Shown: positions 3,488-34,296 of the stretch, in pieces
Numbering within the stretch: the first letter of the stretch is position 1
Layout of the letters: every line of letters starts with the position of its first letter
DNA from: Pararcticibacter amylolyticus
GTDB lineage: Bacteria > Bacteroidota > Bacteroidia > Sphingobacteriales > Sphingobacteriaceae
Length of the DNA stretch: 64,000 nucleotides
Direction: 5' to 3'
NCBI RefSeq assembly: GCF_003130405.1
Contig: NZ_QEAS01000001.1
Location: forward strand, 269,314-333,313
Notes under the pieces: generated by a model
What the model saw: only the letters and a program-made list of their open reading frames with translations
What the model was told of the DNA's origin: nothing
Databases searched by the model: none
Program-made: the position numbers and the translations under genes

Positions 3488-5140
3488 TTATTTCGAGAAC
3501 ATCACCTCGTAATACTCATTAGCCATACGGCCGGATTCGAACGCAGGAACAACGTCTGCTGCTGCTTTCTTCACAATTGAAAGCCACCTGCTCTGATCCT
3601 TATAATAAGTTGGCAATACCTCTTTCTCCAGAGTATCAATCAGATTTAAGGCCTCAAGGCGGTCCTTCTCTTCAAATGAAAGCTCATCAGCAGCCGGCTG
3701 AATAAGGAAACAGTTTTCCTTATCTATTGCAAACTCGGGGATCCACCCATCCGGAATGGAAAGATTCACACATCCGTTCATAGCTGCCGTCATACCACTG
3801 GTACCCGAAGCCTCCCTGTACATCCTTGGGTTATTCAGCCAAACATCAGAACCTTTCTTCAATAATGCAGACAATTTCAATTCATAGCCTGTTACCACTG
3901 CGCAATTAGTAAGAGACCGCGTACGGTCAATGATGCTGTTAAACGTATCAATTGCACCATAATCCTGAGGATAAGGCTTCCCAGCCCATATTATCTGAAC
4001 AGGATATTCAGAATTATTCACCAGCTTAAGAAAACGCTCCCAGTCGTTCATCAGCAGATCAGCTCTTTTGTATCCGGCGAAGCGCCTGGCCCAAACCACT
4101 GTCAGCACATTTTCGTCAAAGATCTTCCCGCACTGATCAGCAACAAGATCAAACAGAGCTTTTTTCATCTCTTTCTTTCTGGCTACCATGGCCGTGTCAT
4201 CACCAGCTTCAAGAGCTTTCCCAAAAGCGGGATCTTCCCAGTAAGTCTTGTTCTGGGCGTTTGTAATAGAAGTAATATCGCATATTCCTGGATTACCCTT
4301 CCACATATCGCGGGAAACTTCACCATGGAGTTTCGAGACCGCATTAGCTTTCCCGGCAAACTTAAGAGCCCCGAGGGTATAATTAAATGCGTGCCCTTCC
4401 AGCCCAAGAACCGACTTCACCTCGTGCTCTGTAAGGCCGTAGAAGAAAGACATATCCTGCAGGAGGGAGTAGCCGTGCTCTTCGTTACCCGCAGCTTCCG
4501 GTGTATGCGTAGTAAACACTACCCGCTTCTTCACCTCTTCAACACTTTTAAATTTAGAGTACAGATAGAAGTTAAGAGAAATAGAATGTCCTTCATTCAT
4601 ATGATACAAGGTGTCGTCTCTTCCGATCAGGTCAAGCAGCTTTGCACCGCCTGTTCCCAGAAGGATAGACTGAGCAACACGTGTTGCCTCGTTTGAATCG
4701 TACAACCGATGGCTGATACCTCTCGAAACTTCATCATTTTCAGGAAGATCGGTACTCAGCAAAAACAGGGGCGCAGACTTAAAGACCTCAGGCTTCAGAA
4801 GCCATACTTTTACATGCACGGGAGAATCATGAATGGGAATAGTAAACCGGATACCGGTATCTTCCAGAAACGAATATTGTTTCTCAACAAATGCAGGTTT
4901 CATGATACCGCTGGTATCTCTCACCTGGTCATAATATCCATATTTCCAGAGTATTCCAACTCCAACAAGATTCTGTTTAAGTTCATAAGCACTTCTAAGA
5001 TGTGATCCGGCAAGGAATCCGAGACCACCACTATAAATTTTTAATGCCTGGTCGATGGCAAATTCCATAGAAAAATATGAAACAGGAGTTGCATATTTCT
5101 GATCGGGCTCATAGCTAAAAATATCCTTAGTTGTAATCAT
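3488..5140 (-). CDS. Alpha-glucan phosphorylase family protein with PLP lysine replaced by Thr
   Basis: A 550-residue GT35-type protein of the short alpha-glucan phosphorylase group. Family marks include YFSMEFAID (22-30), GGLGFLAGSH (38-47), FTTHTPEAAGNEEH (209-222), ARRFAGYKRADL (351-362) and EASGTSGM (443-450). Normal members phosphorolyse glycogen or maltodextrin to glucose-1-phosphate using PLP on a lysine right after the GTSGM/GTGNM motif. Here that position is T451 (codon ACG, 3788-3790), so PLP attachment may be lost or altered. Glycogen synthesis genes glgA-glgC lie about 26 kb away. It could be a non-phosphorolytic glucan-binding or transferase relative, perhaps common in this lineage. 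Fold assignment is strong; activity is doubtful. Confidence 0.8.
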   Translation of the reverse strand: MITTKDIFSYEPDQKYATPVSYFSMEFAIDQALKIYSGGLGFLAGSHLRSAYELKQNLVGVGILWKYGYYDQVRDTSGIMKPAFVEKQYSFLEDTGIRFTIPIHDSPVHVKVWLLKPEVFKSAPLFLLSTDLPENDEVSRGISHRLYDSNEATRVAQSILLGTGGAKLLDLIGRDDTLYHMNEGHSISLNFYLYSKFKSVEEVKKRVVFTTHTPEAAGNEEHGYSLLQDMSFFYGLTEHEVKSVLGLEGHAFNYTLGALKFAGKANAVSKLHGEVSRDMWKGNPGICDITSITNAQNKTYWEDPAFGKALEAGDDTAMVARKKEMKKALFDLVADQCGKIFDENVLTVVWARRFAGYKRADLLMNDWERFLKLVNNSEYPVQIIWAGKPYPQDYGAIDTFNSIIDRTRSLTNCAVVTGYELKLSALLKKGSDVWLNNPRMYREASGTSGMTAAMNGCVNLSIPDGWIPEFAIDKENCFLIQPAADELSFEEKDRLEALNLIDTLEKEVLPTYYKDQSRWLSIVKKAAADVVPAFESGRMANEYYEVMFSK

Positions 5141-23328: not shown

Positions 23329-23790
23329 ATGGAAAAGGCTTTTAGCAGCCTGGCAGAGCTACAGGCGGAAATTGATCTTTTAAAGGTACGGAGCTTTCAG
23401 CAGGAAGAGGCCTTAAAAGAATCCCTGAGCAGTCCTGCTGCTGTATTTAATACAGTAAAAGGCTTTTTCAAGTCAGGCAACAACAAAAAATCTTTAACAT
23501 CAGATCTGTTAAGTCAGGATGCTATAACAAGTGTTGCCCGGATTGTGCTTCCTTTGTTTATGAATGGTGTTTTGTTCAGAAAATCAGGATTTATCACCAA
23601 AACGATCATTACTTTCCTTTCGCAGAAAGTAGCAAAACAAGTAAACTCTAATGCAGTTTCGGGCATTATGGATAAAGTAAAAGATTTTTTTAAAAAAAAG
23701 AGAAGTCCGCAATTCAGCAATTTCGGAGTTAAACAAACCAGCCGCCGGTCTGTAGATTACGGCATTCCTCCTGACAGCGAGAGTTATTAA
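23329..23790 (+). CDS. Uncharacterised protein of the YtxH/holin-like cassette
   Basis: A 153-residue protein not recognised as a named family. It starts directly after the TAG of the holin-like gene. It has a helical N-terminus (AELQAEIDLLKVRSFQQEE), a mildly hydrophobic middle (VARIVLPLFMNGVLF, 88-102) and a basic C-terminal part (KDFFKKKRSPQF). The pattern suggests a peripheral or single-pass membrane protein working with the two preceding genes. A strong terminator overlaps its stop codon. Confidence 0.7.
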   Translation: MEKAFSSLAELQAEIDLLKVRSFQQEEALKESLSSPAAVFNTVKGFFKSGNNKKSLTSDLLSQDAITSVARIVLPLFMNGVLFRKSGFITKTIITFLSQKVAKQVNSNAVSGIMDKVKDFFKKKRSPQFSNFGVKQTSRRSVDYGIPPDSESY

Positions 23791-23839
23791 CACAAACAGA
23801 AAGAGGCTCCCGATGGAGCCCTTTCTGTTTGTGTTAATA
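23785..23839. terminator. Long bidirectional terminator overlapping a stop codon
   Basis: A stem of about 25 bp (23785-23810 with 23815-23839, one bulged A) and a 4-base loop cgat. The left arm contains the TAA of the 153-residue gene. It sits between convergent genes and can end both transcripts. Confidence 0.85.
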
Positions 23840-23851
23840 TTTATCTTTCTC

Positions 23852-24778
23852 TTAAAGCTTACTCAAAAAGTCCTCATAAGCCAACTGAATCCCTTCTTCC
23901 AGTTCCACCTTGTGCTTCCAGCCATAAGAATGCAGCTTTGATACATCCATCAGCTTCCGCGGGGTACCATCCGGCTTGGTGGTATCAAATTCCAGCTCTC
24001 CTTCAAACCCGATGATCTTCTTTACCGTCAGGGCCAGTTCCTTAATGGTGACATCCTCCCCTGTACCGATGTTGATCAGGTTGGGTTCATTATACGTCTC
24101 CATCAGCGATACGCAGGCATCCGCCAGGTCGTCGGCAAACAGGAATTCTCTCTTTGGGCTACCGGTTCCCCAGATCACTACTTTATCTTTTCCTCCTGTC
24201 TTTGCTTCATGAAACTTGCGGATCAATGCGGGCAGCACATGTGAGTTTTCAGGGTGGTAGTTATCGTTATATCCATACAGGTTGGTGGGCATAACGGATA
24301 CGAAATTACATCCATACTGGTCACGGTATGCATCGCATAACTTGATCCCGGCTATCTTGGCTATGGCATAGGGCTCATTGGTTGGCTCTAATGTGCCGGT
24401 CAGCAGATATTCTTCTTTTAATGGCTGGGGGGCCATCTTTGGATAAATACAGCTGGATCCCAGGAACATCAGCTTCTTTACGCCTTGTACATAAGCGTTA
24501 TGGATAATGTTGTTCTGGATCATCAGGTTGTCATACAAGAACTCACCCCTGTAGGTATTATTGGCGATGATCCCTCCTACCTTGGCGGCGGCCAGAAATA
24601 CATAGTCGGGCTTTTCCTGTTCAAAGAACTCAGCCACTGCTGCCTGGTTCCTTAAATCCAGCTCAGAGGAGCTGCGGGTGATAATGTTTTCGTATCCTTC
24701 TTTTTGTAATTTTCTGAATATTGCCGAACCAACCATTCCTTTGTGGCCGGCAATGTAGATCTTAGAGTTTTTTTCCAC
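23852..24778 (-). CDS. fcl: GDP-L-fucose synthase
   Basis: A 308-residue extended SDR enzyme that converts GDP-4-keto-6-deoxymannose to GDP-L-fucose with NADPH. The cofactor motif is GHKGMVG (11-17), the active site shows GSSCIYP (107-113) with Y137-x3-K141 in PYAIAK, and the family signature [16 protein letters not shown] is present. The start codon is GTG. Its usual partner, GDP-mannose 4,6-dehydratase (gmd), is not in the window, so the precursor is made elsewhere. It is monocistronic and lies next to the long hairpin region. Cytoplasmic, feeding surface polysaccharide synthesis. Confidence 0.93.
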
Positions 24779-24983
24779 GGACGAGAACTATTTTGCCAAA
24801 GATAAAGATTCTGGGCACATCTGCCGAATACTTCTCTGTGATCCCCCTAAGATGAGACTCAATTGTATAAAGCATCGAACCCATTTCACATAGAATGCGT
24901 TCAGGACAGGTTAGGGTCAGAGATAAGGAAATCCCTTCCCTGATATGAAAAATGATTATACAATCTTCCGGTCGAAAGCACGG

Positions 24984-25061
24984 CAATAGCACAGTGAGTG
25001 CACCATAAGTGCACCTTTATGATGAAAAAGGTGCACTTATGGTGCACTCACTGTGTTATTG
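24984..25061. repeat. 35-bp near-perfect inverted repeat with four phased GTGCAC palindromes
   Basis: Left arm 24984-25018 and right arm 25027-25061 match at 34 of 35 positions (the one difference is a G-T pair), around an 8-base loop atgatgaa. The palindrome GTGCAC occurs at 24998, 25009, 25031 and 25042, that is with spacings of 11, 22 and 11 bases. Each arm carries two tandem 11-mers beginning GTGCACC. No T-tail follows, so it is not an ordinary terminator. It could be a protein-binding array, a cruciform, or a mobile-element relic. Confidence 0.95.
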
Positions 25062-25262
25062 ATGTACACTGGGGTGAAAGCAGGCACGACCGGATAACGG
25101 AAATAATTTTCGCTATGCACTTGTTTGGCTGCCACCAGGGAAGACATTGCCCGGGAGGCTATCAGTTTCTTTCTTGTGATGCTATGGAAGCCCAGCGTAC
25201 AATTGATACGGCGCTTTTCACAGGCACTAAAGTAAAACCCTTACAGATCACAGATTTTTCAA

Positions 25263-25270
25263 TATGTTTG
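25263..25270 (+). promoter_or_regulatory. Candidate -7 element for the trmB operon
   Basis: TATGTTTG matches TAnnTTTG and lies 15 bases before the trmB ATG at 25286. Confidence 0.5.
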
Positions 25271-25285
25271 CGTCAATTTTGACTA

Positions 25286-34243: not shown

Positions 34244-34296
34244 AGTAAAAAGTTGAAAGTAAAAGCGAATTAACTTTTTACTTTCAACTTTTTACT
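34244..34296. terminator. Hairpin with tandem agttgaaagtaaaa units between convergent genes
   Basis: A 21-bp perfect stem (34244-34264 with 34276-34296) around an 11-base loop. The right side is two direct copies of tttttactttcaac (34275-34288 and 34289-34302), so the stem is built from a repeated unit. It lies between glgC (rightward) and the MBL hydrolase (leftward) and is placed to terminate both. Confidence 0.75.

Follow-up and report, generated by a model that had tools for sequence, protein, structure and literature searches.

What is the almost perfect inverted repeat that lies between the divergent genes fcl and trmB of Pararcticibacter amylolyticus? It sits in a stretch of 64,000 nucleotides (contig NZ_QEAS01000001.1, positions 269,314 to 333,313), which is called the window here. 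An earlier note on this DNA described a 35-bp repeat with four phased GTGCAC palindromes and proposed that it could be an operator array, a cruciform element or a small mobile-element relic. The hairpin belongs to a dispersed family of elements of about 100 bases, in which an 11-base motif recurs once per helix turn in a mirrored arrangement. The family is spread between the genes of soil bacteria within one family. Judged by the open-licence papers searched, in which no description of such repeats in Sphingobacteriaceae was found, it is previously undescribed.

Anatomy of the element in the window

In the inverted repeat, 34 of the 35 positions of the arms (24984-25018 and 25027-25061) are paired, the loop between them consists of the 8 bases ATGATGAA, and the hexamer GTGCAC begins at 24998, 25009, 25031 and 25042. 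In these points, and in the lack of a T run after the 3' arm (none is seen in the sequence at 25062-25075), the earlier description was accurate. It was also an understatement. The near-perfect repeat at 24984-25061, which is defined by sequence, fold and hexamer positions, is the inner portion of a 102-bp element at 24972-25073 (44 + 14 + 44 bp), because the 11-bp period continues outward by two further units on each side; and the genome has about 16 related copies, this element included.

Sequence, centre-aligned copies and periodicity define the whole element as a palindromic array with four 11-bp units on either side of a 14-bp centre, which belongs to type A (GTGCACCATRA) of its own genome. 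The left array on the plus strand (24972-25015), delimited by sequence and unit phase, contains from outer to inner the units TCGAAAGCACG, GCAATAGCACA, GTGAGTGCACC and ATAAGTGCACC. The centre, TTTATGATGAAAAA (25016-25029), is in the aligned copies the counterpart of TTTT-NNNNNN-AAAA, the usual centre of mirrored arrays. The right array on the minus strand (25030-25073), assigned from sequence and aligned copies, contains the inverted units GGTGCACTTAT, GGTGCACTCAC, TGTGTTATTGA and TGTACACTGGG, read from inner to outer on the plus strand.

The window hairpin folds as RNA with -65.2 kcal/mol, compared with a mean of -23.5 kcal/mol for shuffled sequences (z -13). Its ungapped hairpin score is 32, while the best scores in five Markov-shuffled windows are 10-12 and the next-best hairpins of the real window reach 21 and 18. 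The latter two, at 34244-34296 and 23785-23839, resemble ordinary terminators; the second lies within the gap of the convergent genes 23329-23790 and 23852-24778. The window hairpin is the sole occurrence of exact GTGCAC pairs spaced 11 bp. An Rfam scan of the window gave no family above the gathering score, and the listed open reading frame at 24998-25282, whose start falls within the hairpin, is probably spurious.

A dispersed family and its partner operon

The genome of P. amylolyticus (6.3 Mb; G000) contains about 16 elements with two types of unit: seven copies of type A, including the one in the window, and nine copies of type B (GTGAGWGCACG). Another genome of the genus, G002, has five copies of a third type, GTGAGTGCACG. 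An initial search of 40 relatives found the family in G002 and nowhere else, because other genomes use other units. Most of the other carriers checked, which are relatives from Arcticibacter and Pedobacter, have 3-17 array sites per genome, and in many carriers 8-17 sites are dispersed over the genome. Pedobacter foliorum and Pedobacter sp. PAMC26386 have many arrays with the unit TNAGTCCACSN. The presence of the family elsewhere in relatives speaks against a chance or assembly product, which the earlier note had tied to absence of the repeat from this site and others. The exact type A unit pair GTGCACCATAAGTGCACC was not found in the viral contigs of IMG/VR.

Some arrays precede an operon. 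At L041 and L053 in G000 and at L055 in G002 the array lies about 120-200 bp upstream of a gene whose product, of 276-293 aa, matches no Pfam family and which is followed by a DUF6266 gene (PF19781); we call the first gene DUF6266-like. The arrays in question are of type A at L041, of type B at L053 and of type GTGAGTGCACG at L055. Five of the six genus genomes have one or two intact arrays ahead of such an operon; in the sixth, G005, the leader array is partly deleted (L295) and has lost its centre along with some of one arm.

The solo arrays in each of these genomes are of the same unit type as the array of its own operon. For one unit this match was predicted before the search: TGANGCCACNNTGANGCCAC, the unit of the operons in G001, G003, G004 and G005, was sought in all six genomes. 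It was found at 8 sites in G001, 3 in G003, 12 in G004 and 9 in G005, counts that each include the operon's own site, and at none in G000 and G002. A reversed-pattern control had zero hits across the six genomes. In Pedobacter the match between unit type and gene is looser. Pedobacter foliorum and PAMC26386 have one or two copies of the DUF6266-like gene together with their arrays; G155 has four direct arrays and no detectable DUF6266-like gene, and many genomes have distant relatives of the gene and no TNAGTCCACSN-type unit. The pattern-negative genomes in this comparison were picked by hand, so that no co-occurrence statistic is claimed.

The DUF6266-like gene itself belongs to a large family, with 9-27 mostly intact copies per genus genome. 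As a rule the other copies are preceded by a hairpin or motif whose core is related (consensus near TRAGTCCACC-TTTT); in many Arcticibacter copies it has degenerated too far to fold into a good hairpin. In G002 there are groups of near-identical gene copies within unrelated flanks, which indicates that the gene plus its leader has itself been dispersed. In these groups the homology begins ahead of the hairpin; in several it ends at or near the stop codon.

Several single loci are worth recording. The pair L124/L125 from G002 is 99.3% identical over 1512 bp (-531 to +980 relative to the gene start) within unrelated flanks; here the homology ends at the stop codon and no target duplication is obvious by eye. 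Thirteen close paralogues in G004 (L145-L157) have a conserved core and variable C-terminal tails, most of which terminate in a GKRVSFSS-like motif. At L091 in G067 (3850-4500) an array copy is followed by a decayed remnant of a DUF6266-like gene; what this locus has in common with the intact L092 includes the 3' end of the preceding gene, and it is a segmental duplicate in decay. A seventh GAGTCTACC-type hairpin in G002 (L331, G002:C1:4551165) has only about 42 codons of a DUF6266-like reading frame remaining. Around the window copy and most solo copies no such remnants were found.

The proteins of the operon give few hints on function. AlphaFold models of both show an N-terminal region and helices followed by an Ig/FN3-like sandwich. 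The second gene of the operon is a member of PF19781. The first has no Pfam model and shares with DUF6266 an N-terminal motif, the only part supported by a profile comparison, and the overall predicted architecture. Pfam gave no match to the operon proteins besides DUF6266 and no ParM, ParA, ParB-like or ParR partner. A fold search with the DUF6266-like protein returned weak Ig, C2 or FN3-like matches only (best Z 5.9), and no transposase, nuclease or DNA-binding fold was prominent among the matches listed. It has no sequence relatives in the PDB, nothing was found in PHROGs, and no paper on DUF6266 was found among the open-licence literature.

Phasing, placement and conservation of the arrays

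The helical phasing suggested by the four hexamers turned out to be the strongest conserved feature of the family. In all six centre-aligned sets the arms match themselves at a shift of 11 with a score of 0.66-0.82, compared with at most 0.40 at the other shifts between 6 and 16. Hairpin pairing, on the other hand, is not clearly the conserved feature. In five of six sets the arms of one copy pair no better with each other than with arms of different copies; the exception is type A of G000, in which pairing is slightly better within than between copies (P 0.003). Furthermore, G085, G155 and G157 have direct arrays in which the inverted arm is weak or missing. The fact that the arms generally lack covariation and that direct-only arrays exist indicates that what all of them share is the phased array rather than the hairpin, which makes the earlier suggestion of a cruciform doubtful.

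All of the 46 solo sites are intergenic; 21 lie in tandem, 12 in divergent and 12 in convergent gaps and one at a contig edge. This sample pools orthologues from G001 and G005, and the number of independent sites is somewhat smaller. The ratio of tandem, divergent and convergent gaps is that expected at random (2:1:1), which argues against terminators and against operators linked to promoters; in that sense the earlier reading as an operator array is not supported.

Five of the seven solo sites in G001 are orthologous in position to sites in G005 on both sides and a sixth on one side. These six orthologous elements are 87-94% identical and free of internal indels, compared with 18-84% identity in the adjacent 90-bp flanks, where alignment gaps account for part of the low values. 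One orthologous pair, L285 and L297, has an asymmetric centre that is inverted between the two species, as expected from arm recombination. Among G000, G002, G003 and G004 the positions of the arrays differ, and a fixed number or position of sites can therefore not be essential.

In G002 and G003, too, the genes fcl and trmB are adjacent and divergent, with gaps of 127 and 60 bp that contain no array; in the window the gap is about 505 bp, and the extra length exceeds one element. From this comparison it is more likely that the array was gained in the lineage of the window than that it was lost by the relatives. The idea of a small mobile-element relic is supported with respect to a mobile or dispersed origin, given the many copies and the array-free syntenic gaps in two relatives. 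The word relic finds no support where it can be judged, since orthologous copies are constrained in two other species.

Origin and possible role

The organization of the system resembles that of REPtrons (PMC3733652) and its anatomy that of parC iterons (PMC9426499), but defining features of both fail. In REPtrons, i.e. REP/BIME elements with RAYT transposases, extragenic palindromes are likewise dispersed between genes, and a repeat family is specific to one gene of its genome, next to which the repeat also occurs. REP sequences, however, are palindromes of 20-40 bp with a GTAG or CGTC tag (PMC3733652, PMC2817692), whereas the present element is about 102 bp long, is built from 11-bp units and is present in anything from a handful of copies to 17. 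Its consensus ends differ by genome, and a constant tag of the GTAG or CGTC kind was not seen. The partner gene does not encode a Y1 (HUH) transposase, and the IS200/RAYT Y1 transposase (PF01797) is absent from all six genus genomes (positive in 5 of 14 controls). MITEs are also short, palindromic and dispersed copies without a reading frame, and related full-length elements with a reading frame exist here as well; unlike in MITEs, no transposase was found, the internal 11-bp array is atypical and the sequence is constrained between species. An intrinsic terminator was rejected as a candidate on account of the missing T run at 25062-25075 and the placement, which is random with respect to gene direction.

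These comparisons bear on the best surviving alternative, in which the arrays are miniature REP- or MITE-like mobile elements that are moved in trans as folded hairpins, have no host function and are conserved simply by recent common descent. This explanation is conceivable but on balance doubtful. It agrees with the multiple intergenic copies at positions that differ in deeper lineages, with the syntenic gap that is array-free in two relatives, with the decayed copy and its reading-frame remnant in G067 and with the near-identical copies of related single-ORF elements in unrelated flanks of G002. It does not agree well with orthologous copies that are more conserved than their flanks and keep the unit phase without internal indels, nor with the absence of the Y1 transposase from the six genomes, the arms without covariation in five of six sets and the one near-identical pair of related single-ORF elements in which no target-site duplication was seen by eye.

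The second comparison is with the ParR/parC system of plasmid R1, in which ParR requires at least two of the 11-bp repeats (PMC9426499). In both systems an operon is preceded by direct repeats in helical phase; an array of direct repeats in the range of about 10-20 bp is present here too, with the 11-bp period in all sets. The differences are that our arrays are chromosomal, are found at many sites per genome and are usually mirrored, and that by Pfam the operon lacks ParM and a ribbon-helix-helix ParR. A chromosome-organising site, either centromere-like or macrodomain-like, would explain why many carriers have 8-17 dispersed sites that are neutral in orientation to genes and conserved in place between two species. 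In Pedobacter sp. PAMC26386, with array sites at 4.01-4.59, 0.12, 0.49, 2.91 and 3.27 Mb, seven of the nine sites are even no farther than about 0.75 Mb from the GC-skew minimum, a pattern that was noticed post hoc with a noisy skew and is possibly due to chance. It was not reproduced in G002, and clustering at the origin is therefore not claimed. Since the positions also vary among deeper lineages and the operon has no ParM, ParA or ParB-like partner, we consider this role improbable.

The least probable explanation, and one to which we give very little credit, is a transcribed RNA hairpin serving as terminator, processing or mRNA-stability element: a single strand folds very stably, the gene copies have an array in their leader and the type A arms of G000 pair slightly better within a copy (P 0.003), but there is no T run or Rfam match, sites are as frequent in divergent as in convergent gaps, and the arms show no covariation in five of six sets, with the inverted arm weak or missing in G085, G155 and G157.

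The reading that we favor, and that we would give an even chance, is an array of putative binding sites in helical phase, mobile in origin and now constrained, that would be bound by an oligomerising protein, with an operon product as a candidate. Such a protein would bind the 11-bp units, which recur roughly once in each turn of the helix, on one face of the double-stranded DNA. The best candidate binder is the product of the DUF6266-like/DUF6266 operon, which carries the same type of unit in its own leader; there the array may function as an autoregulatory or nucleation site. Because neither operon protein has a recognisable DNA-binding domain, the binder may be another protein. The arrays of G155, where the DUF6266-like gene is not detectable, and the damaged operon leader of G005 also speak against this reading. 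Solo copies would arise through dispersal of the operon leader array; in the lineage of the window a copy would have been gained in the gap between fcl and trmB (or lost by the relatives), and solo copies would then be kept in intergenic DNA under sequence constraint.

A more far-reaching proposal is tentative and in our view rather unlikely as it stands. The DUF6266-like and DUF6266 proteins could together make up a sequence-specific system in which they cover the phased 11-bp arrays at scattered places on the chromosome, while unit and operon diversify in step from one species to the next. Its role might be in organizing the chromosome or in moving the element, and its mechanism would differ from those of known transposases and partition systems.

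The present results connect a precise DNA element with an abundant and uncharacterised protein family that has up to 27 dispersed gene copies per genus genome. Should the operon product bind the arrays, the species-wise change in the 11-bp unit would be a natural experiment in protein-DNA co-evolution, and the binding would be the first function for DUF6266.
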